Shown one piece after another: positions 1,269 through 31,198 of a DNA stretch of 64,000 nt. A program made the position numbers and the translations under genes. Numbering within the stretch: position 1 is the stretch's first letter; each line of letters opens with the position of its first letter. The DNA lies in assembly GCF_011683915.1 (NCBI RefSeq), contig NZ_JAAQPH010000006.1, forward strand, positions 230,627 through 294,626, written 5' to 3'. The notes under the pieces were generated by a model, which searched no databases, was not told the origin of the DNA, and saw only the letters and a program-made list of their open reading frames with translations. Source of the stretch: Pelagibius litoralis (lineage in GTDB: Bacteria; Pseudomonadota; Alphaproteobacteria; Kiloniellales; Kiloniellaceae).

Positions 1269-1324
1269 GGTTGGTTTCCCCGAAGCGCCGAATTAGTGAC
1301 GCAATGGTCCCTGATCATTCTCCG

Positions 1325-1423
1325 CCGTCATGCTCGGGCTTGTCCCGAGCATCCATGGTTCAGCCGCCTCGCCACGGCGTCATGGACCCTCGGAACAAGC
1401 CCGAGGGTGACGGAAGGAGAATG
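1325..1423. repeat. Dispersed palindromic repeat, single inverted copy
   Basis: Two hairpin-forming ends, TGCTCGGGCTTGTCCCGAGCA and CCCTCGG-AACAAG-CCGAGGG, flank a short spacer. The same family recurs in the opposite orientation as tandem copies at about 30,412-30,789 and 31,588-31,872. Here it sits between dctQ and dctP and could form an mRNA stem-loop that affects relative expression. It is not coding. Confidence 0.75.
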
Positions 1424-1451
1424 ACTGCAACAACGTCGTTGCGCCAGCCTG

Positions 1452-2608: not shown

Positions 2609-4291
2609 TCAGTCCAGCATCGGCAGGTTGAGTCCCTGCTCTCTGGCACAGTCTTTTGCGATTTCGTAGCCGGCATCGGCGTGGCGCATGACGCCGGTGG
2701 CCGGATCGTTGTGCAGCACCCGGGCGATGCGCCGGGCCGCGGCTTCGGTGCCGTCGCAGACGATCACCATGCCGGAGTGTTGCGAGTAGCCCATGCCGAC
2801 CCCGCCGCCGTGATGCAGCGACACCCAGGTGGCGCCGCTGGCGGTGTTCAGCAAGGCGTTCAGCAGCGGCCAGTCGGAGACGGCGTCGGAGCCGTCCAGC
2901 ATGCCCTCGGTCTCCCGGTTGGGGCTGGCGACGGAGCCGGAGTCCAGGTGATCGCGGCCGATGACGATAGGTGCGGAGAGCTCGCTGCTGGCGACCATCT
3001 CGTTGAAGGCGAGGCCCAGCTTGGCGCGCTGGCCCAGGCCGACCCAGCAGATCCGCGCCGGCAGGCCCTGGAACTGAATGCGCTCACGCGCCATGTCCAG
3101 CCAGTTGTGCAGATGGGTGTCGTCGGGGATCAGTTCTTTTACCTTGGCGTCGGTCTTGTAGATGTCCTTCGGGTCGCCTGACAGCGCGGCCCAGCGGAAG
3201 GGTCCGATGCCGCGGCAGAAGAGGGGGCGGATGTAGGCCGGCACAAAACCGGGGAAGTCGAAGGCATGCTCGACGCCCATATCCTGGGCCATCTGGCGGA
3301 TGTTGTTGCCGTAGTCGAAGGTGGGGACGCCCTGGGCATGGAAGTCCAGCATGGCGCGCACCTGCACGGCCATGGATTCCTTGGCCGCCTGCACCACGGC
3401 GTCGGGATTCCTGGTCTTCTCGTCCTCCCAGCGCTGCAAGGTCCAACCCGCCGGCAGGTAGCCGTTCAGCGGATCGTGGGCGGAGGTCTGGTCGGTTACG
3501 GCATCGGGCCGGATGCCCTGCTCCACCATCTCCGGAAAAATCTCTGCGGCGTTGCCGAGCAGCCCGACGGAGACGGCTTCGTCTTTGGCCTTGGCGTCCT
3601 CGATGATCGCCATCGCTTCTTCCAGGGTTGCGGCCTGACGGTCGAGGTAGCCGGTCTTCAGGCGCATCTCGATACGGCTGGGCTGGCATTCGACCGCCAG
3701 CATGGAGGCGCCGGCCATGGTCGCCGCCAGCGGCTGGGCGCCGCCCATGCCACCCAGGCCGCCGGTCAAAATCCAGCGGCCCTTCAGGTCGCCGCCATAG
3801 TGCTGGCGCCCGACCTCGACGAAGGTCTCGTAGGTGCCCTGCACGATGCCCTGGCTGCCGATGTAGATCCAGGATCCGGCGGTCATCTGGCCGTACATCA
3901 TGAGCCCGGCCTTATCGAGCTCGTTGAAGTGTTCCCAGTCGGCCCAGTGCGGCACCAGGTTGGAATTGGCGATCAGCACCCGCGGCGCATCGGCATGGGT
4001 TGGGAAGATGCCGACCGGCTTGCCGGACTGCACCAGCAGGGTCTCGTCGTCGTTCAGGTTCTGCAGGCAGGAAACGATGGTGTCGAAGGACTTCCAGTCC
4101 CGTGCCGCCCGGCCGATACCGCCGTAGACCACAAGCTCTTCCGGCTTCTCCGCCACCTCCGGGTCGAGGTTGTTCATCAGCATGCGAAGCGGCGCTTCGG
4201 TCAGCCAGGACTTGGCGGAGAGTTCCGCGCCATGGGGGCTGCGGATGACGCGGGCGTTGTCACGCCTTGAGTTGGTGGGAGTATCGGACAT
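2609..4291 (-). CDS. hutU: Urocanate hydratase
   Basis: It converts urocanate to 4-imidazolone-5-propionate in the cytoplasm, the second step of histidine degradation, with tightly bound NAD+. The 560-residue length is normal for HutU. The glycine-rich [18 protein letters not shown] near residue 175 is the NAD-binding region, and [17 protein letters not shown] near 400 holds the conserved catalytic-loop cysteine. ATG at 4291 is preferred over a TTG three codons upstream because GGAG lies about 10 nt before it. A perfect HutC-type operator lies 29 bp upstream. The TRAP receptor gene follows, so hutU and the transporter are probably one HutC-controlled unit. hutH is not adjacent. Confidence 0.97.
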
Positions 4292-4319
4292 GGCAGGCAA
4301 ACTCCGGATCTGGACCGAA

Positions 4320-4333
4320 GTTGTATATACAAC
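4320..4333. promoter_or_regulatory. HutC operator in front of hutU
   Basis: GTTGTATATACAAC is a perfect 14-bp palindrome and matches the known HutC binding sequence (core TGTATATACA). It lies 29 bp upstream of the hutU start, where bound repressor would block transcription or initiation. Release by urocanate is the established HutC mechanism. Three further copies occur in the next 10 kb. Confidence 0.9.
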
Positions 4334-6686: not shown

Positions 6687-6965
6687 GTGAACAAGCGTCT
6701 GGTCTTCATGCTCGCGGTCTGGGTCTGCGTCTATCCGCTGGTCACCCTGCTGCTGTCCGCTTTGGAATGGCTCGGCCTGCAGCTTCCCCTGGCCCTGCAA
6801 ACCCTGTTGCTGACCGCCGTTGTGGTGCCCGCCATGGTGTTTGTTGTTGTCCCGGGCGTTTCGCGGTTTGTTGGCGGGCCCGTTAGTCCCGGTCCCGGTC
6901 TTCCGCCGAAAAGCGCCCGCCCAGGCGGTAGCGGTCGCCGGGGTGGAGCAGGCGGGCCCAGGTGA
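6687..6965 (+). CDS. Small two-helix membrane protein, 3' end antisense to hutC
   Basis: A GTG-initiated frame of 92 residues starts 21 bp after the MarR stop. Residues 5-28 (FMLAVWVCVYPLVTLLLSAL) and 36-58 (ALQTLLLTAVVVPAMVFVVV) are clear hydrophobic helices with the look of a real inner-membrane hairpin. The last 27 residues are Gly/Pro/Arg-rich because they run antisense through the end of hutC (83-bp convergent overlap), so this tail is probably unstructured. AAGG precedes the start. The third-gene position in the ABM-MarR operon supports it. The family is not recognised. Confidence 0.5.
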   Translation: MNKRLVFMLAVWVCVYPLVTLLLSALEWLGLQLPLALQTLLLTAVVVPAMVFVVVPGVSRFVGGPVSPGPGLPPKSARPGGSGRRGGAGGPR

Positions 6966-7635
6966 CCGGTCGCTTGCCGGACCAGGTGTGGCGGCGCAGC
7001 AGCAGGCAGGGGGTGCCGGCGTCGATCTCCAGCAGGCGCCGTTCCTCATCGCTGGGCAGCACCGCCATCACCATGTGCTCGGCTTCGCTTAAGGGAGCGG
7101 CCTGCATCAGATAGTGGTTGGGTGTGATCCTGGTGAAGTCCTGGTCCATGTAGGCCGGTGCCGCCGCCGGGCTGACGTAGCGGTCTTCCAACTGGATCGG
7201 CTGGCCGTTTTCCCGGTGAACGATGATAGAATGAAACAGCGTGTCGCCGCGTTTCAGGCCTAGCAGCTTGGCCTCGAAGGCGCGGGCCTTCTCGCGGCGC
7301 AGCAGGCAGATCTCGGCGCTGTGGTCGTGGCCACGCGCGCGAATCTCGTCGGCGATGTTGTGGATCGAGAGGATTTCGGACTGCGGCTTGGTCTGCGCCA
7401 CAAAGGTGCCGGCGCCCTGGACCCGGTCCAGCCAGCCTTCGCCGGTCAGCTCCCGCAGGGCGCGGTTCACCGTCATCCGGCTGACGCCCTGTTCGCGGGT
7501 CAGTTCGTTCTCCGAAGGCACGCGCCCGCCCTCCGGCCAGTCACCCGCCAGGATGCGGCTGACGATGTAGTCCTTCACCTGCTGATAGAGGGGCGGGTCG
7601 TCCTGCGCGGTGGGGGCGGGGGTGGAAGGGGCCAT
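6883..7635 (-). CDS. hutC: Histidine utilisation repressor HutC (GntR family)
   Basis: This is a GntR/HutC-type repressor of 250 residues. The N-terminal winged helix includes YQQVKDYIVSRI, GRVPSENELTREQGVSRMTV and RVQGAGTFVA (residues about 15-80). The C-terminal UTRA ligand domain, which senses urocanate in characterised HutC proteins, carries HSIIVHRENGQPIQLEDRYV. ATG at 7635 gives the canonical length; an in-frame start further upstream would fall inside the operator. It is divergent from hutG with the operator at 7731-7744 between, so autorepression is likely. Four matching operators in the window define its probable regulon. Its 3' end overlaps a small membrane gene on the other strand. 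Confidence 0.95.
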   Translation of the reverse strand: MAPSTPAPTAQDDPPLYQQVKDYIVSRILAGDWPEGGRVPSENELTREQGVSRMTVNRALRELTGEGWLDRVQGAGTFVAQTKPQSEILSIHNIADEIRARGHDHSAEICLLRREKARAFEAKLLGLKRGDTLFHSIIVHRENGQPIQLEDRYVSPAAAPAYMDQDFTRITPNHYLMQAAPLSEAEHMVMAVLPSDEERRLLEIDAGTPCLLLRRHTWSGKRPVTWARLLHPGDRYRLGGRFSAEDRDRD

Positions 7636-7730
7636 AGGGTAGGGTGGTTTCCTGGGTTGGGTTTGCTTGCGGCCTGAACTGTTCCAAGCAACTGCCTTTG
7701 CCTGCCATGAGACAAGCTTTACGGCAGAAA

Positions 7731-7744
7731 CTTGTATATACAAG
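7731..7744. promoter_or_regulatory. HutC operator between hutC and hutG
   Basis: CTTGTATATACAAG is a perfect palindrome 57 bp upstream of hutG and 95 bp upstream of hutC on the opposite strand. It could repress both directions. The TTGTATATACAA core is identical to the other three sites. Confidence 0.9.
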
Positions 7745-7800
7745 ATGGGGTGTTCTGGCCAGCCTGACGCCGCTTGCGCCGGCCCTCAAAAGGATCGTCG

Positions 7801-8610
7801 ATGGACCTCTTTGAATTTTCACAAGGCTCCCTGCCGCTGCTGGTTTCCATGCCTCACAGCGGCACCCACATTCCGCCCGAACTGGCGGCGCGGATGACCG
7901 AAGAGGGTCTGGCGGTGCCGGATACGGATTGGCATATCCCCCGGCTCTACGACTTTCTCGGAGATCTCGACGTCTCGGTCATCCGGGCGACCCATTCGCG
8001 TTACGTCGCCGACCTGAACCGTGCGCCGGACGGTGCGGCGCTCTACGCCGGGGCCGACAATACGGAACTCTGCCCGATCTCGACCTTCGGCCGCCGGCCG
8101 ATCTATCGCGACGGGCAGGCGCCGGCGGAAGCGGAGGTGGCGCAGCGGCGGTCGGATTACTGGCAGCCCTATCACGACCGCATCGCCGCTGCGTTGGCAA
8201 CGATGAAAGAGCGTCACGGCATCGCCCTGCTGTGGGATGCCCATTCGATCCGCAGCGAGGTGCCGCGCTTCTTCGAGGGGCGCCTGCCGGATCTCAACCT
8301 GGGTACGGCGGAGGGGGCGGCGGCGGCCCCGGACCTGCTGGGTATCCTAACGGCGGTGGCCCGCGAGGCCGAGGCGATCGGTTACAGCCATGCCGCCAAC
8401 GGGCGCTTCAAGGGCGGCTACATCACGCGCCAATATGGCAAGCCCGACGCCGGTATTCACGCGGTGCAGTTGGAGCTTTCCTGGATCACCTACATGGACG
8501 AGGATCCGCCCTTTGCTTTCCGTGAAGACTTGGCGGCCAAGGTGCGCCCGGTGCTCTCCGGCCTCGTTCAGACCATGCTGGCCTGGGCGGAGATGGAGGT
8601 GGATCTCTGA
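7801..8610 (+). CDS. hutG: N-formylglutamate deformylase
   Basis: It hydrolyses N-formyl-L-glutamate to glutamate and formate, the last step of the five-step histidine route. The 269-residue protein belongs to the N-formylglutamate amidohydrolase family: SMPHSGTHIPPEL near the N-terminus, RYVADLNRAPDG at about 62-73 and LLWDAHSIRSEVPRFFEG at about 144-161 supply zinc-binding and catalytic residues. ATG at 7801 is preceded by AAGGA. Together with hutF this fixes the HutF/HutG variant, rather than direct formiminoglutamase. A VOC-family gene follows after 51 bp and may be cotranscribed. Divergent hutC and the shared operator indicate HutC control. Confidence 0.95.
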   Translation: MDLFEFSQGSLPLLVSMPHSGTHIPPELAARMTEEGLAVPDTDWHIPRLYDFLGDLDVSVIRATHSRYVADLNRAPDGAALYAGADNTELCPISTFGRRPIYRDGQAPAEAEVAQRRSDYWQPYHDRIAAALATMKERHGIALLWDAHSIRSEVPRFFEGRLPDLNLGTAEGAAAAPDLLGILTAVAREAEAIGYSHAANGRFKGGYITRQYGKPDAGIHAVQLELSWITYMDEDPPFAFREDLAAKVRPVLSGLVQTMLAWAEMEVDL

Positions 8611-9217: not shown

Positions 9218-10450
9218 TCAGCCGCCCTGAACGACCTTCCCGTCCTTCACCACCTGATGGCAGGGGTTGAAGCCGATGCGGTAGGCGAGCTCGGCCGGGT
9301 GATCGATATCCCAGAGCACGAAGTCGGCGGCCTTACCGGTTTCCAGGGTGCCGTGGCTGTCCTGCAGGCCGAGGGCGCGGGCGCCGTTGCGGGTGATTCC
9401 GGCCAAGGCCTCCTCCGGTGTCAGGCGGAACAGGGTGCAGGCCATATTCAGCATCAGCAGCAGTGAGGTGGCCGGGGCCGAACCCGGGTTGCAGTCGCTG
9501 GCCAGCGCGATGGGCACTCTGGCCTGGCGGAAAACCTCCACCGGCGGCTGTTGGGTTTCGCGCAGGAAGTAAAACGCGCCGGGCAGCAGCACCGCAACCG
9601 CGCCGCTGGCGGCCATGGCGCGCACGCCCTCGTCGCTGGTGTATTCCAGATGATCGGCGGAGAGTGCGCCGAAGCGGGCGGCAAGCGCGGCGCCCTTGAG
9701 GTCGGAGAGTTGATCGGCGTGCAGTTTCACAGGCAGGCCGGCGGCCCGGGCCGCCTCGAAGACGCGGGCCACCTGTTCCGGGTAAAAGGCGATGTGCTCG
9801 CAAAACGCGTCGACGGCATCGGCCAGGCCGGAGGCGGCGACCTCCGGCATCATGGCGATCACGGCATCGATATAGTCTTCCGGCCGGCCGTCGAATTCCG
9901 GCGGCAGCGCGTGGGCGCCCAGGAAGGTGGTCTTCACCGTCAGCGCTTCGTTCGCGCCCAGGCGCCGGGCAACGCGCAGCATCTTCAACTCGTGTTCCAG
10001 CGACAGGCCGTAACCGGACTTGATCTCGATGGTCGTCACCCCCTCGGCCAGGAAGGCGCGCAGGCGGGGCAGGGCGGCGTTGTAGAGGGTCTCCTCGTCG
10101 GCTTCGCGGGTCTGGGCGACGGTGAAGCGGATGCCGCCGCCGGCCCGCGCGATTTCCTCGTAGGAAGCCCCCTCCAGGCGCAGTTCGAACTCCCGCGCCC
10201 GATCGCCGCCATAGACCAGATGGGTGTGACAGTCGATCAGGCCGGGGGTGATCCAGCGGCCCGCGCAGTCGTGTACCGCGCCGGCCAGATCCGCCGGCGC
10301 GCCGGGCAGCGCGCTTTGCGGCCCCAGCCAGGCAATCCTGCCGCCGGCCACGGCAAGCGCCGCCGCTTCGACGGCGCCGTAAGGTTTGGCGTGCGCCGGG
10401 TCGGCCACCATGGTGGCCAGGCGCGCGCCGGTCCAGAGCTCATCCCACAT
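9218..10450 (-). CDS. hutI: Imidazolonepropionase
   Basis: It hydrolyses 4-imidazolone-5-propionate to N-formimidoyl-L-glutamate, step three of histidine degradation, in the cytoplasm. The 410-residue amidohydrolase shows the metal motif [19 protein letters not shown] near residue 75, [16 protein letters not shown] near 143, the histidine of KLHADQLSD near 244 and the aspartate of [12 protein letters not shown] near 320. ATG at 10450 has an AGGGGAAA ribosome site about 8 nt ahead. It is divergent from hutF, with a HutC operator 55 bp upstream of its start. Confidence 0.96.
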
Positions 10451-10504: not shown

Positions 10505-10518
10505 GTTGTATATACAAC
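10505..10518. promoter_or_regulatory. HutC operator between hutI and hutF
   Basis: GTTGTATATACAAC is identical to the site in front of hutU. It lies 55 bp from hutI and 68 bp from hutF, centred in their divergent promoter region, so one bound repressor could control both. Confidence 0.9.
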
Positions 10519-10585: not shown

Positions 10586-11977
10586 ATGACGAGCCATAAG
10601 CTTTTTGCAGAGCAGGCCTTTCTTTCAGACGGCTGGGCGGAAAATGTGCTGCTGGAGGTTGATGCGCGGGGTGACCTTCGTCAGGTGACGCGAGATGCCG
10701 CGGCGGGCGACGCCACGCGGCTGGCCGGGCCGGTGCTGCCCGGCATGGCGAACCTGCACAGCCATGCCTTCCAGCGGGCCATGGCGGGCCTGGCCGAACA
10801 TGTGGAGCCGGGCGGAGCAGGCGACGATTCCTTCTGGACCTGGCGGGAGGTAATGTACCGCTTCGTCGGCACCCTGACCCCCGAACAGGTGCAGGCCATC
10901 GCCGCCCAGCTCTATGTCGAGATGCTGAAGTCCGGCTACACGGCGGTCGGTGAATTTCACTATCTGCATCATGGCCCTGATGGGCAGCCTTACGACGATA
11001 TCGCAGAGATGTCGCACCGGACCATCGCGGCGGCCAAGGCCACCGGGATCGGCATTACCCAGCTTCCGGTGCTCTATGGTTACGGCGGTTTCGGAGCTCA
11101 GCAAGCCGGTGAAGGGCAGCGGCGTTTTCTCAATAATCCCAATCGCTTGTTGGGCATTGTTGAGGCGCTTAAGATATCGCATGAGGGCGATCCTCAGATT
11201 CGGGTCGGTCTGGCGCCGCACTCCCTGCGGGCGGTTACGCTTGAGACATTGGATGAAGCGGTGACGGGCCTGACTGCACTCGATCCCGGGGCGCCGATCC
11301 ATCTCCATATCGCCGAGCAGGTGAAGGAGGTGGAGGATTGTCTGGCCTGGTCCGGCAGGCGCCCGGTCGAATGGCTGCTGGAGAACCGCCCGCCCGACCG
11401 CCGCTGGTGTCTGGTGCATGCGACCCACATGAGTGCGGCAGAGACGAAGGGGTTGGCGGCCTCCGGCGCGGTCGTCGGGCTCTGTCCGACGACGGAGGCA
11501 AACCTGGGCGACGGCCTGTTCCCGGCGGCAGACTTTCTGGATGCCGGCGGCGCCTGGGGCATCGGTTCCGACAGCCACATCTCGGTCAGCCCTGTGGAGG
11601 AACTGCGCTGGTTCGAGTACGGCCAGCGCCTTGCCACCCGGCGGCGCAACGTGCTGGCGGGAGAGGGCGCGGCTGCCGCGCTCGGCCACCGCCTCTACAG
11701 CGAAGCGCTCGCCGGCGGCGCCCAGGCCCTCGGCCGTCCCATCGGCGCACTGGAGGCGGGCCGCCGCGCCGACCTCGTGGTCCTCGACCCGGCGACGCCG
11801 GCACTCTCGCAGATGCCCGTCGAGCGCCTGCTCGACGCGACGATCTTCGCCGGCAACTGCAATCCCGTGCGCGACGTCATGGTCGGCGGCGACTGGGTCG
11901 TCTGCGAAGGGTCGCACAGGGACGAGCGCAAGGTGCTGGAAAACTACCGCGTCGTATTGAAGTCGCTGCTGTCCTAG
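10586..11977 (+). CDS. hutF: Formimidoylglutamate deiminase
   Basis: It converts N-formimidoyl-L-glutamate to N-formyl-L-glutamate and ammonia, feeding HutG. The 463-residue amidohydrolase carries PGMANLHSHAFQRAMAGL (about 52-69, metal His-x-His and the HutF-specific FQRAMAG), HLHIAEQVKEVEDC near 238, LVHATHMSAAE near 271 and IGSDSHISVSP near 325, whose aspartate is the fourth metal/catalytic residue. ATG at 10586 is preceded by GCAGGA. It is divergent from hutI and shares the HutC operator. Alternative amidohydrolase functions are unlikely given the motif and neighbours. Confidence 0.96.
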   Translation: MTSHKLFAEQAFLSDGWAENVLLEVDARGDLRQVTRDAAAGDATRLAGPVLPGMANLHSHAFQRAMAGLAEHVEPGGAGDDSFWTWREVMYRFVGTLTPEQVQAIAAQLYVEMLKSGYTAVGEFHYLHHGPDGQPYDDIAEMSHRTIAAAKATGIGITQLPVLYGYGGFGAQQAGEGQRRFLNNPNRLLGIVEALKISHEGDPQIRVGLAPHSLRAVTLETLDEAVTGLTALDPGAPIHLHIAEQVKEVEDCLAWSGRRPVEWLLENRPPDRRWCLVHATHMSAAETKGLAASGAVVGLCPTTEANLGDGLFPAADFLDAGGAWGIGSDSHISVSPVEELRWFEYGQRLATRRRNVLAGEGAAAALGHRLYSEALAGGAQALGRPIGALEAGRRADLVVLDPATPALSQMPVERLLDATIFAGNCNPVRDVMVGGDWVVCEGSHRDERKVLENYRVVLKSLLS

Positions 11978-12669: not shown

Positions 12670-14004
12670 CTAAACCCAGGGGCAGTGGCTGTTGGAGGCG
12701 CCGAAGGTGCGGCCTTGGGCGAAGCGGGTGAAGGCGAAGGGCTCCAGCTCCGCCACCCGGTTGTCGCCGGCCAGGATCTTTGCCACCAGCTTGCCGACCC
12801 CGGTCATTTTGAAGCCGTGGTTTGAATCGGCGATCATGTAGGCGTTGGGCAGGATCCAGTCGAAGATCGGCACGTTGTCCGGCGTGAAGGCGCCGATGCC
12901 GCCGTTGGGCCGGTCCTTGAAGTTCTTCCGGTGTCCTTTGAAGCGCGGCATCAGATAGCCCATGGCGGCGGTCAGGTAGTCGGCGAACCAGTCGTCGGCC
13001 TGGTAGTCCTTGTTGTCCCAGCCGTAGGGATCGACCGCGGCCTTGGGGCCGATCTTGATGGGGATGGTGCCGCCCTGCACGCCGGCGCGCTCCATCCGCT
13101 CGGCGCCGTTCTTCCAGTAGACATAGAGATGGTCGGAGATCTCGGCACCGGTTTCCTCGTTCATCACCGGGGTGTTCATCATCTCGACGTGGAGTACCGG
13201 CGGGTCCAGGTCGCGGTTATCGCGGTAGGGCTCATCGACATAGACCTCGCCCTCCAGCAGCCGCCAGTAGGTCCACATGTCCAGGCTGTTGGTGCCGCCG
13301 TCGGGATACTTGGCCTCGATGGTGTCGGGCTTGCCCAGCATCTCCCAGTGCTTGCCGATCCAGGCGCCGTAGCAGAGCACGGCGACGTCGCAGGCGATGT
13401 CGCCCTCGTTGGTGTGCAGCTTGGAGATGCGTCCGTTGGTGACGTCGTAGCCGGTAACCTCGATGCCGGAGAGGATCTGCACGCCGTGCTGAACGCACTT
13501 CTCGGCCAGGCCGGCGACGGCCTGGCGGGTGCCGGCATAGCCCGAGGGTTTTTCGTGCAGCACGACACCGACGTTCTCGGTGTTGAAGTCGGGCCAGTAT
13601 CCTTTCAGGAAAGACTTGGCCTCCTTGCCGACATAAACGTCGGAGCGGTAGTCGGCGGCGTTCTGACTCTTGGTCATGCGCTCGTAGTCGGCGATCTGGT
13701 TTTCCTCGCCGACGGAGATGTAGCCGACCTGCTGGAAGCCGAAGCGCACCGGGTCTTCCATCCAGACGTCGACGGAATGACGCAGGATCGGATGCAGCGC
13801 TTCGGTCATGTAGAAGTTGCGCACGCAGCCGCAGGCGATGCCGCTGGCCCCGGCGCCGGGTGCTGTCTTGTCGAGGACGACGATGTCTTTGCCGGACCCC
13901 TTGCCGCGAGCCTCCAGCTCCATGGCCAGGTGCCAGGCAGTGGAGAGGCCGTGGATGCCGGCCCCGGCGATGACATAGGTTTTTGAATCCGGAAGTACGG
14001 TCAT
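12670..14004 (-). CDS. FAD-dependent oxidoreductase, DAO family (putative N-methyl amino acid oxidase/demethylase)
   Basis: This 444-residue flavoprotein of the glycine oxidase/sarcosine oxidase/dimethylglycine dehydrogenase family has the dinucleotide fold TYVIAGAGIHGLSTAWHLA at 8-27 and VVLDKTAPGAGASGIACGCV at about 42-61. The C-terminal flavin segment NGGIGAFTPDNVPIFDW is followed by NHGFKMTGVGKLVAKIL. It lacks the GcvT-like tetrahydrofolate domain of full dimethylglycine dehydrogenases. It is divergent from an MttB-like methyltransferase, with a HutC operator in the shared intergenic region. A reasonable role is oxidation of a partially demethylated amine or amino acid formed by the methyltransferase. 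The substrate is inferred, not shown. Confidence 0.85.
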   Translation of the reverse strand: MTVLPDSKTYVIAGAGIHGLSTAWHLAMELEARGKGSGKDIVVLDKTAPGAGASGIACGCVRNFYMTEALHPILRHSVDVWMEDPVRFGFQQVGYISVGEENQIADYERMTKSQNAADYRSDVYVGKEAKSFLKGYWPDFNTENVGVVLHEKPSGYAGTRQAVAGLAEKCVQHGVQILSGIEVTGYDVTNGRISKLHTNEGDIACDVAVLCYGAWIGKHWEMLGKPDTIEAKYPDGGTNSLDMWTYWRLLEGEVYVDEPYRDNRDLDPPVLHVEMMNTPVMNEETGAEISDHLYVYWKNGAERMERAGVQGGTIPIKIGPKAAVDPYGWDNKDYQADDWFADYLTAAMGYLMPRFKGHRKNFKDRPNGGIGAFTPDNVPIFDWILPNAYMIADSNHGFKMTGVGKLVAKILAGDNRVAELEPFAFTRFAQGRTFGASNSHCPWV

Positions 14005-14380
14005 GGTGGTGGTATCCTTGTCAGGTCTGATCGACGGATCGTTCCCCCCTGGCGCCCACCTTGACCGTATGGCCCGCTAGGAAGACCGCGTCTGTCTTCC
14101 CGTCTGCGCCGGGCGGAATCGATCCGACCCTTTTCGGGTGCCGCCGGGGCGGTTGTTGACCGCCAGAACCCTGCGCGTTTAGGCCGGAAACGACACCACC
14201 TGTCGTCTATACACGAGACTTTCCGGACTTGTATATACAATTTGATAGGGAAGCAGATCAGCCGCGGCGGCCCGCCACGATTCTGGCGCAACGGGGCCGG
14301 GAGCCCGTGATGCACGCCGCCGGGCAGGCTGTCCTGTCGCACAAACATAAAGGCCTCACCATGAAGGCCGAGGAGGTACC
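14005..14380. other. Divergent control region of the FAD oxidoreductase/MttB pair
   Basis: This 376-bp gap holds the HutC-type operator at 14229-14240 and a strong ribosome site (AGGAGGT, 14371-14377) for the methyltransferase. TATACA-like hexamers flank the operator, but no single promoter could be chosen. No coding frame is convincing. Confidence 0.7.
14229..14240. promoter_or_regulatory. HutC-type operator in front of the MttB-like/FAD oxidoreductase pair
   Basis: TTGTATATACAA is identical to the 12-bp core of the three sites beside hut genes, although the flanking bases are less symmetrical. It lies 140 bp from the methyltransferase start and 224 bp from the oxidoreductase start. It implies that both genes respond to urocanate through HutC. 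Confidence 0.8.
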
Positions 14381-15925
14381 ATGGCACGGGATACGGGGCG
14401 CCGCGGCGGACGGCGCGGGCAGGGGGAACGCAGGCCGGCAGCCGGCCTGAAGCAGCTCGACTGGGTGTTGCCGGAAAACCCCTACGACCCCATAAAAGTG
14501 CTGCGCGACGATCAGGTTGAAATGATCACCGACACCGCCTTCCGCATTCTGGAAGAGGTCGGCATGGACTTCCTCCACTCCGAAGCCCGGGAAATCCTCG
14601 CCAAGGCCGGCGCCAGGGTGGAGCCGGGCAGCCAGCGTGTTTACCTCGACCGCGGTCTGGTGAAGGAGGCGCTGGCCTCGGCCCCTTCCAGTTTCACCCT
14701 GCATGCCCGCAACCCGGCCCACAATCTGGAGATCGGCGGGCGCAGGATCGTGTTCGGCAGCGTCGGCTCGGCCCCCAATTCATCCGATATGGACGGCGGG
14801 CGCCGTCCCGGCAACTACCGGGACTACAAGAACTTCCTGCGCCTGACCCAGGCCTTCAACATCGTGCACTTCGTGGCCGGCTATCCGGTGGAGCCGGTCG
14901 ACCTGCACCCTGCGACCCGGCACCTGGATGCGCTGCGGGATTGTCTGACGCTGACCGACAAGGCTTTCCATGCCTATTCCCTCGGCCGGGCCCGCATTCT
15001 CGACGGCCTGGAGATCGTGCGTATCGGTCACGGCATGACGGAGACTGAACTGGCCGCCAAACCCTGCCTGTTCACCATCGTCAACACCTCCTCGCCGCTG
15101 CGCCTCGACGGACCGATGATCGAAGGCATCATCGAAATGGCGCGGCGCAATCAGGTGGTGATCATCACGCCGTTCACGCTGTCGGGTGCCATGAGCCCGG
15201 CGACGGTGGCCGGGGCCCTGGCCCAGCAGCATGCCGAGGCCATGGCGGGCATGGCCTTTACCCAGATGGTCAACCCGGGTGCGCCGGTGATCTACGGCGG
15301 CTTCACCTCCAACGTCGATATGAAATCGGGCGCGCCGGCCTTCGGCACGCCGGAATACAGCCGCGCCGCCCTGGCCGGCGGACAGCTGGCCCGGCACCTG
15401 GGCATTCCCTATCGCTCCTCCAACGCCAACGCGGCCAACTGCGTCGATGCCCAGGCGGCTTACGAATCCCAGATGTCGATCTGGGGCGCGGTCATGGGCC
15501 ACGCCAATTTCATGATGCACGGCGCCGGCTGGCTGGAGGGCGGTCTCTGTGCCTCCTTCGAGAAATTCGTGCTGGATGTGGAGATGCTGCAGATGATGAC
15601 GGAGTTCCTGCGGCCCCTGGAGGTCAGCGAGGACTCCATCGGTCTGGAAGCGATCCGCGAGGTCGGGCCCGGCGGTCATTTCTTCGGCGCCGCCCATACG
15701 CTGGAGCGCTATGAGACTGCCTTCTACGATCCTATCCTGTCGGACTGGCGCAACTTCGAAAACTGGCAGGACGGCGGCAGCGAAACCGCGACCCAGCGCG
15801 CCAACCGCCTGTACAAATCCGTGCTGGAAGACTTCACGCCGCCGCCCCTCGACCCGGCGATAAAGGACGAGCTCGACGACTTCGTCGCGCGCCGCACGGC
15901 GGAGGGGGGTGCAGAAGCAGCATAG
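14381..15925 (+). CDS. MttB-superfamily methyltransferase (non-pyrrolysine, putative betaine methyltransferase)
   Basis: This 514-residue member of the trimethylamine methyltransferase family has no in-frame amber codon, so it belongs to the non-pyrrolysine branch. Characterised members of that branch take a methyl group from quaternary amines such as glycine betaine, proline betaine or carnitine and pass it to a corrinoid protein. Landmarks are DTAFRILEEVGMDFLHSEAR near 48-67, FGSVGSAPNSSDMDGG near 125-140 and the barrel segments NPGAPVIYGGFTSN and GHANFMMHGAGWLEGG. ATG at 14381 follows AGGAGGT. The first about 25 residues are Arg/Gly-rich. No corrinoid protein gene is in the window. The HutC operator upstream hints at a histidine-derived betaine. 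Confidence 0.88.
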   Translation: MARDTGRRGGRRGQGERRPAAGLKQLDWVLPENPYDPIKVLRDDQVEMITDTAFRILEEVGMDFLHSEAREILAKAGARVEPGSQRVYLDRGLVKEALASAPSSFTLHARNPAHNLEIGGRRIVFGSVGSAPNSSDMDGGRRPGNYRDYKNFLRLTQAFNIVHFVAGYPVEPVDLHPATRHLDALRDCLTLTDKAFHAYSLGRARILDGLEIVRIGHGMTETELAAKPCLFTIVNTSSPLRLDGPMIEGIIEMARRNQVVIITPFTLSGAMSPATVAGALAQQHAEAMAGMAFTQMVNPGAPVIYGGFTSNVDMKSGAPAFGTPEYSRAALAGGQLARHLGIPYRSSNANAANCVDAQAAYESQMSIWGAVMGHANFMMHGAGWLEGGLCASFEKFVLDVEMLQMMTEFLRPLEVSEDSIGLEAIREVGPGGHFFGAAHTLERYETAFYDPILSDWRNFENWQDGGSETATQRANRLYKSVLEDFTPPPLDPAIKDELDDFVARRTAEGGAEAA

Positions 15926-15961: not shown

Positions 15962-16849
15962 ATGAACAATTTATCCGACAACTTCCGCGGCGCCCTTTTC
16001 ATGTCCATCTCCATGGCGGGCTTTGCGCTGAACGACGCGACCGTCAAGTTGGCTTCCGCGGACCTCGGCCTGTTTCAGATTATCCTGCTGCGCGGCGTTT
16101 TCGCCTGCCTGTTGCTCACCCTGCTGGCCTGGCATCGCCGCAGCCTGTTCTATCGGCCATCGCGCGGCGACACGATGGTGCTGATCCTGAGGGCGACGGG
16201 CGAGGTCGGTGGCACGCTGTGTTTCCTGACCGCGCTTTTCAACATGCCGATCGCCAACGCGACCGCCATCCTTCAGGCGTTGCCCCTGGCCGTCACCCTG
16301 GCGGCCGCCCTGTTCCTGGACGAGGCCGTGGGCTGGCGGCGCTACAGCGCCATCGCGGTGGGCTTCATCGGTGTGCTGATTATCGTCCGGCCGGGCGGGG
16401 AGGGCTTTAACGCCTACGCCCTCTGGGCCGTGGCGGCTGTCGCCTTCATCGTGCTGCGCGATCTTTCAACCCGGCTTCTTTCCGCCGGCGTTCCCACGCT
16501 GTTCACCGCGCTCACCTCCGGCCTGGCGATTACCGTTGTCGGCGGCGTGCTGGCGCTGACCGAGGACTGGGCGCCGGTCAGCGGACCGTCGCTCGCGCTG
16601 ACGGCGGGCGCCGCCTTCTTCCTGCTCTTTGCCTATATCTTCGGTGTCAGGACCATGCGCATGGGCGAGGTCAGCTTCATCTCACCCTTCCGCTACACTG
16701 TCCTCATCTGGGCGATGATCCTGGGCTTCCTGCTGTTCGGCGAAGTTCCCGACGGCTGGACCCTGGTCGGCAGCCTCGTCGTGGTCGGTATGGGCATCTA
16801 CACCTTCTACCGCGAACGGCGGCTGTTGAAGGCGGCTGCGGCGCAATGA
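15962..16849 (+). CDS. EamA/DMT-family permease
   Basis: This 295-residue membrane protein has about ten hydrophobic segments arranged as two EamA repeats (roughly 10-140 and 150-285), the usual layout of drug/metabolite exporters. The first repeat includes NMPIANATAILQALPLAVTL, a typical EamA segment at the end of the fourth helix. It starts 36 bp after the methyltransferase stop on the same strand and may be cotranscribed. Members export or import amino acids, nucleotides or other metabolites, so a link to the betaine/histidine genes is possible but not shown. Confidence 0.88.
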   Translation: MNNLSDNFRGALFMSISMAGFALNDATVKLASADLGLFQIILLRGVFACLLLTLLAWHRRSLFYRPSRGDTMVLILRATGEVGGTLCFLTALFNMPIANATAILQALPLAVTLAAALFLDEAVGWRRYSAIAVGFIGVLIIVRPGGEGFNAYALWAVAAVAFIVLRDLSTRLLSAGVPTLFTALTSGLAITVVGGVLALTEDWAPVSGPSLALTAGAAFFLLFAYIFGVRTMRMGEVSFISPFRYTVLIWAMILGFLLFGEVPDGWTLVGSLVVVGMGIYTFYRERRLLKAAAAQ

Positions 16850-17769: not shown

Positions 17770-18711
17770 TTATGCCGTTCCCGGATGGACCGGGGCTTCC
17801 TTGGCGCGGAAGAAATAGCGCCGGAAGATGGTACCGTAACCGGAGAACACGTAGCCCCCGTTGGCGGCCTGGAAGAGGGCGCGCTGTTCGCGGTAGAGCG
17901 CCGGGATGCGGTACCAGGGCAGGCCCGGCTTGGCGTGGTGGACGATGTGCAGGTTGTTGTTGAGGAACAGCAGCGACATCAGCGGCCCGGCCTCGACGAT
18001 GGCCGAGCGGTGGGTCGGAACCGGCTCCGCGCGATGCTCCAGGAAGGAGCGCAGCAGGGTCAGGCCGATGCCGGGATAGACGAAGAACAGCAGGTATTGC
18101 CAGAGCGGCAGGCCGCAGACGGCGAGCACCCAGGTAAGCACCAGAACGACACCCAGCCCATGAAGCGCCCAGGCCTTGGCGTGGGAGAAATCGCCCCGCA
18201 GCAGGCGCTTGCCTTCGGCACCGTAGAGCAGCCAGAAGCAGCGCAGCGGCCCCAACAGCAGGCGCCCGGCAAGGCTGTTCTGCACCCAGAGGAAGGTCCG
18301 GACGAAGGGGCCGGCGGTGGCCCAGGCCTCAGCGGTAAGATAGAAGGATTCCGGATCGTCCAGCGGATCGGTGAGGCTGTCGTCGTTGTGGTGTGCCAGA
18401 TGGCTTTCGCGATAGAGGCGGAAGGGGATCCAGAGCCAGAGGCTCGGCAGCACCAGGGCTTCGTTCAGCCAGGCGAAAGGCGTCGGGTGGCCGTGCACCA
18501 CCTCATGCTGCAGTGAGCCGTGCCAGGCCACCAGAAAGGTGCCGGCCGGCAGCAGGACCCACCAGGCCAGGGCGCCGTGGAACCAGGTAAGGGCGCCGAA
18601 GGCAGCGTAAATCACAACCACGACCGCCAGGGTCGGGAACTCGAACTTTCTGGAAACGTGTTTTCTCAGAACGGGGGCAGAGGCCTGCCCCGACACAAAA
18701 CGATTACTCAA
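17770..18711 (-). CDS. Membrane fatty-acid desaturase family protein
   Basis: This 313-residue integral membrane di-iron enzyme shows the three histidine boxes: LQHEVVHGHPTPF (about 68-80), RESHLAHHND (about 101-110) and NNLHIVHHAKPG (about 253-264). Hydrophobic helices lie at about 27-62, 175-215 and 235-250. The family desaturates acyl chains or hydroxylates lipids and carotenoids at the membrane. The best start is TTG at 18711 with GGGGGAT about 10 nt ahead; an ATG at 18721 opens only a five-codon frame across it. It is divergent from the XRE regulator at 18903. The exact substrate is unknown. Confidence 0.87.
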   Translation of the reverse strand: MSNRFVSGQASAPVLRKHVSRKFEFPTLAVVVVIYAAFGALTWFHGALAWWVLLPAGTFLVAWHGSLQHEVVHGHPTPFAWLNEALVLPSLWLWIPFRLYRESHLAHHNDDSLTDPLDDPESFYLTAEAWATAGPFVRTFLWVQNSLAGRLLLGPLRCFWLLYGAEGKRLLRGDFSHAKAWALHGLGVVLVLTWVLAVCGLPLWQYLLFFVYPGIGLTLLRSFLEHRAEPVPTHRSAIVEAGPLMSLLFLNNNLHIVHHAKPGLPWYRIPALYREQRALFQAANGGYVFSGYGTIFRRYFFRAKEAPVHPGTA

Positions 18712-18799
18712 GTGGTTTCATCCCCCGATGAATAACGGCTGATACATAACGACCAGGGCATTCTCCCAAAAAGGGGTAGGGGACAACAATGCGGGACTG

Positions 18800-18864
18800 C
18801 GCACATATCGCAGTTTCTTATCTGCATTGTTTACAATCGCCGCATATTCACTCTAATATGTGCG
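18800..18864. promoter_or_regulatory. Inverted repeat upstream of the XRE regulator
   Basis: CGCACATAT (18800-18808) and ATATGTGCG (18856-18864) are exact inverted 9-mers separated by 47 bp in AT-rich DNA, just ahead of a helix-turn-helix gene and behind the divergent desaturase. A two-site operator with looping or cooperative binding is plausible. Confidence 0.45.
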
Positions 18865-18902
18865 AATTATCAACAAAGTGGCTAATAATCACGGAAACCT
18901 TA

Positions 18903-19781
18903 ATGGATCGCCGACAAACCGTTGAAATCTTTCGCGAACGCCTGACCGAGGTGATCGACCGCTCGGGCCTCAGCCGTTCGGCCTTCGCCCGCAAGGCCGG
19001 TCTCGACCGCTCGACGCTCTCACAGCTGCTGTCCGACGGAAACGACCGCCTGCCGCGGGCGGAGACCATTGCTTCCATCGCCGAACATGAGCAGGTCTCC
19101 ACCGACTGGCTGCTGGGGCTGATCCAGGAGGAGAAGGTCGGCACCAACATTCTGAGTGAGGCACCGGAAATCGCCCAGGGGACTTCTTCCACCTTTGCTG
19201 ACGAGCGGCTGGCGCGCTGGCGGGCCGAGGCGGTGGGCTACAAGATCCGCTATGTGCCCTCCACCCTGCCGGACCTCTTGAAGGGGGAGGAAGTGATCCG
19301 CTTCGAGTATCGTCAGCAGGGCAGCGAGATGCCGGCCTTTCGCATGGAGCAGGCGGAGGCGCGTCTGGCCTACAGCCGGCGGCCGGAGACCGACCTGGAG
19401 GCCTGTTCCTCCCTTCAATCGCTGGAGATGTTTGCGCGCGGGCAGGGCATCTGGTCGACCCTGCCGCTGTCCGACCGCAAGCTGCAGCTCTCCTGGATGA
19501 TCGCGCTGCTGGATGAACTCTATCCGACCTTCCGCTGGTTTCTCTTCGATGGCCTGAAGCATTACTCCGCGCCGGTTACCATCTTCGGGCCCACGCGGGC
19601 CGCCGCCTATATCGGCAATATGTATTTCGTCTTCAATTCGACCGAACATATCCGTGCGCTGACCCAGCACTTTGATAATCTGATCCGCGGTGCCGTGGTG
19701 CAGCCGCCGGATGTGTCAAAGCTGCTGGCGGGCCTGTTGTCGGAGCTTGAGAGCCGGGAAGAGAAGGGCGCCAAGCGCTAG
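18903..19781 (+). CDS. XRE/Cro-type transcriptional regulator with C-terminal sensory domain
   Basis: This 292-residue protein has an N-terminal helix-turn-helix (SRSAFARKAGLDRSTLSQLL, about residues 22-41) and a short repeat-type motif EHEQVSTDWLLGL. A C-terminal domain of about 200 residues, with conserved aromatic content, is not recognised as a specific ligand fold. ATG at 18903 is the start that gives a normal HTH position; the upstream extension is AT-rich and unlikely to be coding. It is divergent from a fatty-acid desaturase, so it may control membrane lipid modification as well as itself. The GFA gene follows after 30 bp. Confidence 0.85.
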   Translation: MDRRQTVEIFRERLTEVIDRSGLSRSAFARKAGLDRSTLSQLLSDGNDRLPRAETIASIAEHEQVSTDWLLGLIQEEKVGTNILSEAPEIAQGTSSTFADERLARWRAEAVGYKIRYVPSTLPDLLKGEEVIRFEYRQQGSEMPAFRMEQAEARLAYSRRPETDLEACSSLQSLEMFARGQGIWSTLPLSDRKLQLSWMIALLDELYPTFRWFLFDGLKHYSAPVTIFGPTRAAAYIGNMYFVFNSTEHIRALTQHFDNLIRGAVVQPPDVSKLLAGLLSELESREEKGAKR

Positions 19782-19811
19782 GAGCGGCAATGCATTAGGG
19801 GCATTACGGGG

Positions 19812-20252
19812 ATGACGAAAGACGACACAAGAGAAGGCGGTTGCCTCTGCGGCGCGATACGCTTTCGCGTGACCGGGCCGCTGCGCCCGGTGATTGCCTG
19901 CCATTGCGGACAGTGCCGCCGGGTACACAGTAACTTCGCGGCGTTTTCGGCGGTCCGGCGCGACGGCCTTGCGATCGTGAACGAGGCGGCGGTCGTCTGG
20001 TACGGCTCTTCGCCCGGCGTGCGCCGGGGCTTTTGCGGCGGCTGCGGTGCCTCGCTGTTTTGGGACAAGGCGGACAACGATTTCGTCTCGGTCTCCGCAG
20101 GCGCTCTGGATCAACCGTCGGGCCTGCGCGTTCATCGTCATATCCATGTCGCCGACAAGGGCGACTTCTACGAGATCGGCGACGGTCTTGAGCGGCTGTC
20201 CGCAGGCCAGAATGATCCTTGGCCGGACGATCCCTGGCCGGACGGGGCCTGA
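19812..20252 (+). CDS. GFA-family (glutathione-dependent formaldehyde-activating-like) protein
   Basis: This 146-residue zinc protein carries the GFA cysteine pattern: GGCLCGAIRF (about 9-18), CHCGQCRR (about 31-38) and CGGCGASLFW (about 75-84), which hold two zinc ions. The prototype binds glutathione and was proposed to speed S-hydroxymethylglutathione formation, but most members have no proven function. The C-terminus ends with a duplicated DPWPD. Its stop overlaps the next start (TGATG), so the two are translationally coupled. Confidence 0.87.
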   Translation: MTKDDTREGGCLCGAIRFRVTGPLRPVIACHCGQCRRVHSNFAAFSAVRRDGLAIVNEAAVVWYGSSPGVRRGFCGGCGASLFWDKADNDFVSVSAGALDQPSGLRVHRHIHVADKGDFYEIGDGLERLSAGQNDPWPDDPWPDGA

Positions 20253-21058
20253 TGCTGAGGGCATCCCTGCCGATGTACGACCTGCCCGGCCTTCAGGCGC
20301 AGACCGATGCCTGGTGGGCGGCGCTGGCCCGGGCATTCCGTGCCGAAGGGCTGCAGGACGTGCCCGACATCCTGGAGCGCGGCGGCGATCCGGCGGCGCT
20401 TTGGCTGTCTCCCGATCTGCTGTTCAGCCAGACCTGCGGCTATCCGCTGACCCATGCGCTGAAGGGCAGGGTAACCCTGCTGGCGACCCCGGAATACGAC
20501 TGCCCGGGTTGCGAGGGTGGGTTTTATTTCAGCGAGATCCTGGTGCGCGAAGACGCCGACTATGGCGATCTCACTGCACTGAAGGGCGCGCGTGCCGTGG
20601 CGAACGAGGTGGGTTCGCAGAGCGGCTACAATGTCCTGCGCGCGGCCGTCGCGCCTCTGGCCGAGGATGGCAGATTCTTTGCCTCCCTGCGTCTCAGTGG
20701 CAGCCACCGGGCATCGATGGCGGCTGTGATCGCGGGTGAGGCCGATGTCTGTGCCGTCGACTGTGTGACCTATCGTTTGCTGGCCGGAACGCAGCCCGCT
20801 GCGGTGGCGGGGCTGCGCCGCCTGGTGGCCAGTCCCGCGGCACCGGCCTTGCCCTACATCACGCGCGGCGACATCGCGGCGGCGGATCTGGAGCGTCTGC
20901 GGGCCGGCCTGCGCAGCGCCTTTGCCGATCCGGCTTTGCAGGACTTACGGGCGGAGCTGCTGCTGCACAAGATCCTGGTGAAGCCTGCCAGTGCCTATGA
21001 CTGTATTTGTGAGATGGAAGCCGGCGCGGTGGCGCTGGGCTATCCGGAAGTCGCCTGA
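20252..21058 (+). CDS. PhnD-like periplasmic-binding-fold protein lacking an obvious signal peptide
   Basis: This 268-residue protein has the phosphate/phosphonate-binding PhnD fold: LFSQTCGYPLTHAL, ARAVANEVGSQSGYNVLRA, LRLSGSHRASMAAVIAGEAD and VCAVDCVTYRLL. Normal PhnD proteins are exported, but this one begins MLRASLPMYDLPGLQAQTD with no hydrophobic leader and is coupled to the GFA gene. No ABC permease or ATPase is nearby. It may be a cytoplasmic ligand-binding or enzymatic relative. An amidase follows after 26 bp, so the three genes form an operon of unknown role. Confidence 0.8.
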   Translation: MLRASLPMYDLPGLQAQTDAWWAALARAFRAEGLQDVPDILERGGDPAALWLSPDLLFSQTCGYPLTHALKGRVTLLATPEYDCPGCEGGFYFSEILVREDADYGDLTALKGARAVANEVGSQSGYNVLRAAVAPLAEDGRFFASLRLSGSHRASMAAVIAGEADVCAVDCVTYRLLAGTQPAAVAGLRRLVASPAAPALPYITRGDIAAADLERLRAGLRSAFADPALQDLRAELLLHKILVKPASAYDCICEMEAGAVALGYPEVA

Positions 21059-21084
21059 GAGCGCCTTCGGCAAAAGAGGAAAAC

Positions 21085-22524
21085 ATGACCGAAGAGACCT
21101 CCCTCTGTGATATGAGCGCGCTGTCGCTGCGGCGCCTGCTGCTGGCGAAGGAGGTCTCGCCGGTCGAGCTTCTGACCGCCTGCCACCAGCGCATCGATGC
21201 CGTGAATCCGGCGGTCAATGCCATCGTTGCCGAAGATCGTGCGGCGGCCCTGGCGGCGGCAAAGCAGGCGGAGGCGGCGATCCTGCGCGGTGAAACGCAA
21301 GCGCCGCTGTTGGGCCTGCCGATCGGCATCAAGGACCTGAACGAGACGGCGGGCCTGCGCACGACCTTCGGCTCGCCGGCCTTTGCCGAACATGTTCCCG
21401 CGAAGGACGATGCCTTTGTGGCGACGGTCCGGGCGGCCGGCGGGATCATCGCTGCCAAGACCAACACACCGGAGTTCGGGGCCGGCGCCAATACGACCAA
21501 CGCGGTCTACGGGACCACGGCCAATCCTTATGACACCGCGCTGACCTGCGGCGGTTCCTCCGGCGGCTCGGCGGTGGCCCTGGCGACCGGGATGCTGCCC
21601 CTGGCCGGCGGCTCCGATCTCGGCGGGTCGCTGCGTACGCCGGCGGCCTACTGCGGTATCGTCGGTTATCGGGCAACCCCGGGCCTGGTGCCGACGGCGC
21701 GCAAGGCAATGGGTTGGTCGCCGCTCTGGACCGAAGGGCCGATGGCGCGGAGCCTTGGCGACCTCCTGCTGTTCCTCTCCGCCATTGCCGGTGAGGACCG
21801 GCGCGACCCGCTGTCGGGCTTTACCGAAGGCGCTGCCTTTGGCGGGCTGCGCCCTGCGTCGCTTGAAGGCGTCAAGGTAGCCGTCTCCGAAGACCTCGGC
21901 GCGGCCCCGGTCAGCCAGGCAGTGCGCCGGCTCTTCCGCCAGCGCTGCGCGGCGCTGGGCGAGATTGTCGACTGCAGGGAAGCGAACCCGGCACTGGGCG
22001 AGCAGGACCGCTGTTTCGAGGTGCTGCGGGCTGTCGGCTTCCTGGGGGAACTGAAAAGCCTGGTCGAGCGCTCGCCGGCGCTGGTCGGCCCCAATGTCAC
22101 GGCCAATGTGAAGCTCGGTCTGACGTTTTCCGCGGTGGATGTGGCCGAGGCCCTGGTCGCGCAGACAGCGCTCTATCATCGCTTCCTGGCGTTTATGGAA
22201 GACTACGACCTCTTGGTCTGCCCGGTGGCTTCGGTCCAGCCCTTCGACAAGGCGCAGCTCTTCCCGACGGAAATCGACGGGCAGCCCTTGGCGACCTACA
22301 TCTCCTGGGTGGCGATTACCTATGTCCTGACGTTGACCGGCCACCCGGTTCTTGTGTTGCCCTGCGGTCTTGATGAAAACGGTCTGCCCTTCGGGCTGCA
22401 GTTCGTCGGCCGCAAGGGGCGGGACCGGGAGCTGCTGCGCCTCGGCCTGGCGCTTGAAGAGGCGCTGGCGAAAGAGACGCTGCTTTCGCGCAGCCTGCCT
22501 GATATCGCCGGTCTGCATCGCTGA
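21085..22524 (+). CDS. Amidase signature family enzyme
   Basis: This 479-residue amidase has the Ser-cisSer-Lys machinery. Lysine is in LPIGIKDLNETAG (about 77-89), and the glycine/serine-rich signature CGGSSGGSAVALATGM runs on to GGSDLGGSLRTPAAYCG (about 153-192). The C-terminal half contains the family segment TLTGHPVLVLPCGL. It hydrolyses an amide to acid and ammonia; the substrate is unknown. It is not GatA, because no gatB or gatC is nearby and motifs are those of general amidases. It is the third gene of the GFA/PhnD-like run, which may suggest an imported or generated amide substrate. Confidence 0.9.
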   Translation: MTEETSLCDMSALSLRRLLLAKEVSPVELLTACHQRIDAVNPAVNAIVAEDRAAALAAAKQAEAAILRGETQAPLLGLPIGIKDLNETAGLRTTFGSPAFAEHVPAKDDAFVATVRAAGGIIAAKTNTPEFGAGANTTNAVYGTTANPYDTALTCGGSSGGSAVALATGMLPLAGGSDLGGSLRTPAAYCGIVGYRATPGLVPTARKAMGWSPLWTEGPMARSLGDLLLFLSAIAGEDRRDPLSGFTEGAAFGGLRPASLEGVKVAVSEDLGAAPVSQAVRRLFRQRCAALGEIVDCREANPALGEQDRCFEVLRAVGFLGELKSLVERSPALVGPNVTANVKLGLTFSAVDVAEALVAQTALYHRFLAFMEDYDLLVCPVASVQPFDKAQLFPTEIDGQPLATYISWVAITYVLTLTGHPVLVLPCGLDENGLPFGLQFVGRKGRDRELLRLGLALEEALAKETLLSRSLPDIAGLHR

Positions 22525-26979: not shown

Positions 26980-27134
26980 GTTTGGTCAATTTTTCAGCAA
27001 ATGAAAAAATTGCTTTGTAGATTGCTGCTGAAATACCCATATTAGACCTGCGAACGGTGCTTTGCGCCGTTCCGGACGCCCTTCGGGCGTTTCCTCCCTA
27101 AACTTGGGCCACCGGTTACGGTGGCCTTTTTTTT
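26980..27134 (+). ncRNA. Candidate small RNA with strong terminator
   Basis: In a 374-bp gap without coding frames, three hairpins follow one another: a CAATTTTTCA/TGAAAAAATTG stem near 26987-27012, GAACGG/CCGTTC near 27051-27071 and GGACGCCC-TTCG-GGCGTTTCC near 27073-27093. A pyrimidine-rich unpaired stretch TTTCCTCCCTAAACTT is next, then a perfect terminator. Single-stranded CCTCCC motifs recur in alphaproteobacterial trans-acting small RNAs. A TATATT at 26967 could be a -10 box. No homology was tested. Confidence 0.5.
27107..27134 (+). terminator. Rho-independent terminator
   Basis: GGCCACCG and CGGTGGCC form an 8-bp stem with a GTTA loop followed by eight T. It points rightwards and ends the candidate small RNA. 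The convergent esterase gene stops at 27153, just beyond it. Confidence 0.88.
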
Positions 27135-27152
27135 GTCTGAACCGAGGGGCTG

Positions 27153-31124: not shown

Positions 31125-31198
31125 CTCTAGACGGCGCAGACGGGTGGTGGAACACCCGCCCGCGCCTGACCACAACCCGACTGTAAAGGAGTCAGGCC

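Follow-up and report, generated by a model that had tools for sequence, protein, structure and literature searches.

The stretch analysed here (the window; 64,000 nt of the Pelagibius litoralis genome, with coordinates counted from its first letter) contains two intact, divergently oriented genes separated by a gap of 376 bp. On the plus strand, mttB1 (14381-15925) encodes a 514 aa methyltransferase of the MttB superfamily without pyrrolysine (PF06253, 684 bits against a cut-off of 25), and on the minus strand the DAO gene (12670-14004) encodes a 444 aa sarcosine-oxidase-like flavoenzyme (PF01266, 116 bits). The gap between them holds a perfect, palindromic HutC-type operator word, TTGTATATACAA, at 14229-14240, together with a second, imperfect and weaker operator-like repeat, CGTCTATACACG, at 14204-14215, which alignment shows to be present in sister genomes too. 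No RNA element was found in the gap by Rfam at gathering score, nor did a simple scan detect a sigma-70-type promoter beside the 14229 operator. A sequence-only reading of this DNA had proposed a HutC operator between an MttB-type methyltransferase and a DAO flavoprotein; the site, a word almost restricted to hut promoters and this pair, and the enzyme classes, from the domain scores above and the fold match described below, were both upheld.

According to the available part of the source, HutC of Pseudomonas recognizes the site TGTA-N2-TACA, and its binding is weakened by the effector urocanate (PMC12977541). The site at 14229-14240 is a perfect instance of this operator in a promoter region. 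Allowing up to one mismatch, its 10-base core, TGTATATACA, was present four times in the window compared with 0.09 expected, a count that none of 100 shuffles reached, and the four sites are those at hutU, between hutC and hutG, between hutI and hutF, and between DAO and mttB1. Across the whole 6.03-Mb genome the exact core occurred in five copies, at these four places and at hutH (reversed-word control, 1), whilst the 12-mer, when one mismatch was tolerated, was found at six places, of which five were again these (reversed control, 0).

The hut genes of the window are arranged around the same palindromic words. The repressor gene hutC (6883-7743, minus strand; TIGR02018, 317 bits, cut-off 220) is separated from the N-formylglutamate deformylase gene hutG (7774-8610, plus strand; TIGR02017, 333 bits) by a gap with the word at 7732-7743; the listed TTG start of hutC falls inside this word, and the real start is likely to be further inside the gene. 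A further copy (10506-10517) lies between the imidazolonepropionase gene hutI (9218-10450, minus strand; TIGR01224, 496 bits) and the formimidoylglutamate deiminase gene hutF (10586-11977, plus strand; TIGR02022, 636 bits). Another (4321-4332) is 5' of an open reading frame (ORF; 2609-4300, minus strand) that we take by its likeness, no family model having been applied, to be the urocanate hydratase gene hutU, and whose homologues in relatives, 76-82 % identical, lie among hut genes; hutH is situated before the start of the window. With the word at four of the genome's own hut promoters and a hutC gene present, membership of the DAO-mttB1 pair in the HutC regulon is, as far as sequence can tell, strongly supported for the host genome and its near relatives. 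HutC would bind the 14229 site and be released by urocanate.

The word was also followed in relatives, where it is retained in the closest ones although the flanking sequence diverges. Thirty-three regions upstream of MttB1 genes were compared, using simple letter shuffles; 32 of these, the window's included, were distinct (L010 and G050:C430 were treated as one contig and counted once). The 12-mer was perfect in 10/32 and carried two mismatches in three more (G003, G007 and G031). Among 40 DAO loci, a perfect word was found in the DAO-MttB1 gap of seven (L007, L008, L009, L010, L012, L013 and L046); an MttB1-type gene diverges from DAO at ten, comprising these seven and three without the word (L022, L026 and L038). 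In G008 the sole perfect copy is at MttB1, and a one-mismatch form, TTGTCTATACAA, lies just 5' of hutI and of a HutH-like gene (reversed control, 1). The sole perfect copy is likewise at DAO/MttB1 in G098 (L012), G099 (L013) and G050, with reversed controls of 1, 0 and 0, respectively; places with up to one mismatch in G098, three including the perfect one, do not exceed the reversed control of 4. In G034, which belongs to another family, perfect words were found at MttB1 and, on other contigs, among hut genes. As a separate observation, five sister genomes (G001, G002, G004, G005 and G006) have one extra perfect HutC-type site, located on a contig apart from their hut cluster; that of G005 (L153) precedes the gene for the ATPase of an ATP-binding cassette transporter, perhaps an uptake system.

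MttB1 was next placed within its family by a tree of 61 sequences, drawn from 90 matches and four added sequences after matches below 400 residues and identical copies had been dropped; some of its long branches were flagged by the program. MttB1 fell inside a group of 47 with support of 99/99, separate from MtgB (PDB 9yce), the Sinorhizobium meliloti protein 4yyc and the paralogue MttB2 of the same genome. Two assignments were rejected: that to the pyrrolysine trimethylamine methyltransferases, where MttB1 scored 306 bits with TIGR02369 against a cut-off of 525 and has no in-frame stop, and that to plain MtgB, as MttB1 does not group with the characterised 9yce, whose long branch leaves its own place unsure. 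The genome contains seven PF06253 genes and has a separate S. meliloti-type MttB paralogue (L047). Additionally, the interval from hutH to hutU contains a second MttB paralogue (L006:5369-6946), which has no HutC-type site.

Genes for the remaining components of corrinoid-dependent methyl transfer, namely a corrinoid protein, a methyl-folate transferase and an activase, are all found in the genome. Its single stand-alone corrinoid protein besides MetH is encoded at L005:7475-8257, at the end of a same-strand row (L005:2414-8257) about 5 kb from hutH that also includes a RamA/AcsV-type activase (L005:2414-4543), a methyl-tetrahydrofolate:corrinoid methyltransferase, a MetF-like protein and a 217 aa protein. 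The last has no match in NCBIfam and is, we presume from its likeness, possibly a DUF1638 protein. We infer that MttB1 uses this corrinoid protein, and predict that it takes the first methyl group from a histidine betaine.

The AlphaFold model of DAO (predicted local distance difference test, pLDDT, 88.7) had as its best PDB match the beta subunit of heterotetrameric sarcosine oxidase (3ad9_B; Foldseek E-value 3.7e-26), followed by L-proline dehydrogenase beta, dimethylglycine oxidase and monomeric sarcosine oxidase. Domain and fold thus both place it among the sarcosine oxidase/DAO flavoenzymes, and the modelled fold agrees with an N-methyl amino acid as the compound oxidized; the enzyme is predicted to oxidize the N-methyl groups that MttB1 would leave. 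Assignment to SoxB was rejected (TIGR01373, 55 bits against a cut-off of 529), and a profile search of the protein returned the DAO domain alone, with no folate domain. Close homologues (at least 73 % identity) were present in 9 of the 98 genomes searched, the window's included, and 30 others had only a relative at 38-44 %. The DAO alignment was built from the window sequence and 26 of the 40 DAO loci (L015 was excluded for an in-frame stop, and the rest were unselected or partial). Four genomes from two other families, f5 and f7, also have a 42 % relative of DAO at a distance of 3-6 kb from hutH (L188, L189, L190 and L191).

Outside the host, linkage to histidine utilization was assessed by the distance of MttB genes from hutI. 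Among the matches listed, a set short of all that exist, there were 150 MttB sequences; ten in genomes with no hutI match were excluded, leaving 140, and contig ends truncate some of the neighbourhoods. Within 20 kb of hutI lay 14/38 of the sequences at least 60 % identical to MttB1, 4/33 of those at 53-59 % and 0/69 of those below 53 %; for 14/38 versus 4/102, Fisher's test gives p = 2e-6, a value to be read with the genomes not being independent. The 18 linked sequences span eight families (f1, f2, f3, f4, f5, f7, f8 and f41).

A further clue to the substrate comes from a homologue of histidine ammonia-lyase found in relatives. It follows DAO by 78 bp on the same strand in L007, adjoins DAO in L012 and L129, and in G026 forms a row with a desaturase-like gene and DAO beside hutF, hutI and hutG; in L093, L096, L097, L098 and L175 it faces MttB1 from the position that DAO occupies in the window. 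Ergothionase (6s7j) is the PDB entry that the lyase resembles most in sequence, and is also the top Foldseek match of its model (pLDDT 92.1), with a lead over tyrosine aminomutase in VIA-align of less than 1 Z (46.9 vs 46.3). Residue counts were made on the best 120 of 632 homologues. The middle residue of the 4-methylideneimidazole-5-one (MIO) triad is missing in 120/120, the lysine and the glutamate of ergothionase are each kept in 120/120, and arginine replaces the histidine of HutH and ergothionase in 119/120. Where the source names these 120 proteins, it calls them histidine ammonia-lyase or aromatic amino acid lyase. Ergothionase removes trimethylamine from a histidine betaine, and the lyases of the relatives have the same ammonia-lyase fold without the MIO triad and may eliminate trimethylamine as well.

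All seven full-length lyase matches of at least 55 % identity lie at MttB1, DAO or hut genes. Partial matches were kept out of this count (G034:C419, G034:C345, G053:C64, G057:C40 and G011:C766); the first is 2.9 kb from hutF, and G057:C40 has no MttB1, DAO or hut gene near. Of eleven near-full matches at 43-52 %, one is at MttB1/hut (L185), nine are not within the DNA examined and one is on a 3-kb contig; a search of 385 genomes of the class at 1e-95 gave seven matches, one at MttB1/hut (L175) and six not. As an ergothionase-like lyase is exchanged with DAO under hut linkage, we regard it as the best pointer to a trimethylated histidine; this favours such a substrate, most simply hercynine. 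That the host uses the lyase itself was rejected, its single lyase match being HutH at 34 %.

The same enzyme raises two other readings. Because the lyase is closest to ergothionase in sequence and in Foldseek and keeps its lysine and glutamate, the substrate could be ergothioneine (2-thio-hercynine), which would lose its sulfur either ahead of demethylation or following it; for cyanobacteria, the available part of one study (PMC3826126) reports hercynine together with one of its thiols, possibly ergothioneine. The linked genes, however, are ordinary hut genes acting on sulfur-free compounds of the urocanate type, the ergothionase histidine is an arginine in nearly all of the lyases counted, and the window genome has no such lyase, so that we hold ergothioneine to be distinctly unlikely. 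Alternatively, MttB1 could act after release of the carbon skeleton, demethylating trimethylamine freed by a betaine lyase, as might be read from the six genomes in which an MttB1-type gene adjoins the MIO-less lyase (the five with the lyase opposite MttB1, and L185). This we consider very unlikely, given that the window genome and its sisters G001 and G005 possess MttB1 but no lyase match above the level of HutH, and that MttB1 lacks pyrrolysine; MttB members without this residue are known for quaternary amines.

Several observations weigh against a histidine betaine as the substrate or against a general role of HutC. In genera g3 and g4 the relatives of MttB1 lie away from hutI, and MttB2 of the window genome, which is outside the listed matches, is 17 kb from hutI without an operator site. 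The operator is absent (three or more mismatches) from 19/32 distinct MttB1 upstream regions. In G003 and G007 the words of the hut region are perfect, yet MttB1 has the two-mismatch form; a scan of the G026 genome gave no word even at one mismatch, and the single perfect copy in G100 (L017) is between transport-type genes rather than at DAO. No MIO-less lyase was detected in the window genome by homology search. Finally, the MttB1-DAO pair is found in other phyla with flanks that contain no hut genes: the two genes are adjacent in L018 and L020 and 1 kb apart in L021 (Chloroflexota), and are together in L026 (Actinomycetota). Their association in these phyla suggests an old common task, not necessarily on histidine betaine.

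This last finding bears on the possibility that the substrate of MttB1 and DAO is glycine betaine or some other betaine without an imidazole ring, with HutC merely tying the pair to nitrogen or glutamate supply. Such substrates would suit the family, as those of described MttB relatives include glycine betaine, carnitine, proline betaine, gamma-butyrobetaine and choline. Nevertheless, the tree places MttB1 in neither the MtgB branch nor the S. meliloti-type one, the genome has its separate S. meliloti-type paralogue, and a non-imidazole substrate leaves both HutC control and the adjoining MIO-less relative of histidine lyases unexplained; we judge it unlikely. Hercynine, the substrate suggested in the sequence-only reading, accordingly finds backing in the MttB-hut linkage of other families and in the exchange and adjacency of the lyase, and meets resistance in the pairs without hut flanks.

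On balance we think it probable, if by a modest measure, that MttB1 and DAO, under HutC control, supply the hut pathway with histidine by demethylating a betaine of this amino acid, most likely hercynine. Hercynine would be imported, with the TRAP or EamA proteins described below as candidates, and the corrinoid protein L005:7475-8257 would receive, through MttB1, one N-methyl group of Na,Na,Na-trimethylhistidine. From there the methyltransferase encoded next to it would hand this methyl to tetrahydrofolate, the RamA/AcsV-type protein would re-reduce the cobalamin, and the MetF-like protein would channel methyl-tetrahydrofolate into one-carbon oxidation. DAO would remove the other two methyls by oxidizing dimethylhistidine and then monomethylhistidine to histidine, which HutH would convert to urocanate; this in turn would lift HutC and induce the whole set. 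All of these catalytic steps are putative. The genome also has EgtD-like and EgtB-like genes (the latter read by eye from the ORF), so that hercynine may be an internal metabolite of the host as well, and the compound was detected in 9/10 cyanobacterial strains (PMC3826126, available in part).

More tentatively, and with slightly less than even confidence, we propose that Kiloniellaceae-like bacteria commonly take hercynine into the hut pathway as an entry substrate, by two interchangeable routes in one regulon. One would be the cobalamin route of MttB1 and DAO, which would save methyl groups as methyl-folate; the other would be the MIO-less, arginine-bearing lyase, which would be a new hercynine trimethylamine-lyase publicly called histidine ammonia-lyase. 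A corrinoid demethylase under HutC control would give the MttB superfamily a further class of substrate and tie the use of histidine by aerobes to vitamin B12; it would also point to a function for a group of MIO-less lyases that often go by the name of histidine ammonia-lyase.

Neighbouring genes provide candidate importers. An EamA-family permease gene (15962-16849, plus strand; PF00892) begins 36 bp past mttB1, with which it likely shares a transcript, and this order is preserved in L007, L009 and L046. Directly 3' of hutU, after a gap of 62 bp, are ORFs of a tripartite ATP-independent periplasmic (TRAP) transporter (1-2546, minus strand), likely on the hutU transcript; the binding protein matches TRAP_S1 and the others are presumably TRAP genes by likeness. 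Further downstream, an FA_desaturase-family membrane protein (17770-18711, minus strand; PF00487) is co-conserved with DAO and mttB1. Its gene adjoins DAO or mttB1 in relatives and is immediately 5' of DAO on the same strand in 10/40 DAO loci; as a guess, it might remove the first methyl in an oxygen-dependent manner. It opens a block (17770-22524) that many relatives keep together with DAO or MttB1 and that continues with an XRE regulator (18789-19781), a GFA protein (19812-20252), a PhnD-like binding protein (20219-21058; all plus strand), in which no signal peptide was obvious by eye, and an amidase. In G003 (L192:5390-9892), the space between MttB1 and hutF, the position of DAO elsewhere, is occupied by small genes, presumably activator-of-Hsp90-like, and others. 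Two Rfam matches lie elsewhere in the window: an mmgR/suhB-type small RNA at 27071-27141 (63.5 bits) and, unexpected on this contig, the R1162 plasmid antisense RNA at 31132-31206 (61.3 bits, gathering 55).

A literature search of titles and abstract beginnings, with subscription papers mostly outside its reach, returned no described route from hercynine to histidine, in agreement with the sequence-only reading, which knew of none. The nearest known system is that of the aerobe Ruegeria pomeroyi, in which glycine betaine is demethylated by MtgBCD (PMC12478193). As far as the available part of that report goes, the host has the same kinds of genes (MttB-family, stand-alone corrinoid protein, pterin methyltransferase, RamA and MetF2), whereas the substrate there is glycine betaine and neither HutC control nor hut linkage is mentioned. 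MttB1 itself branches apart from Desulfitobacterium hafniense MtgB and the S. meliloti protein, in a comparison made without the Ruegeria proteins. DAO shares its fold with heterotetrameric sarcosine oxidase beta and dimethylglycine oxidase, and differs in its low score with the SoxB model and in that no folate domain was found; some sources name its relatives methylglutamate dehydrogenase subunit A. The lyases of the relatives have the fold of ergothionase from Treponema denticola, described as lacking MIO (PMC13405746, available in part), share its loss of the triad and its lysine and glutamate, and differ from it in the histidine-to-arginine change, the hut setting and their absence from the window genome. 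Lastly, the operator word and hut targets of the window are like those of the HutC regulons surveyed in 113 cases, which comprise hut enzymes, histidine biosynthesis, transporters and HutH paralogues; unlike the window's regulon, that survey does not contain the word methyltransferase in its main text (PMC5343134, available in part). The locus would thus place enzyme families that are already known in a new regulon and, should our inference hold, give them a new substrate.

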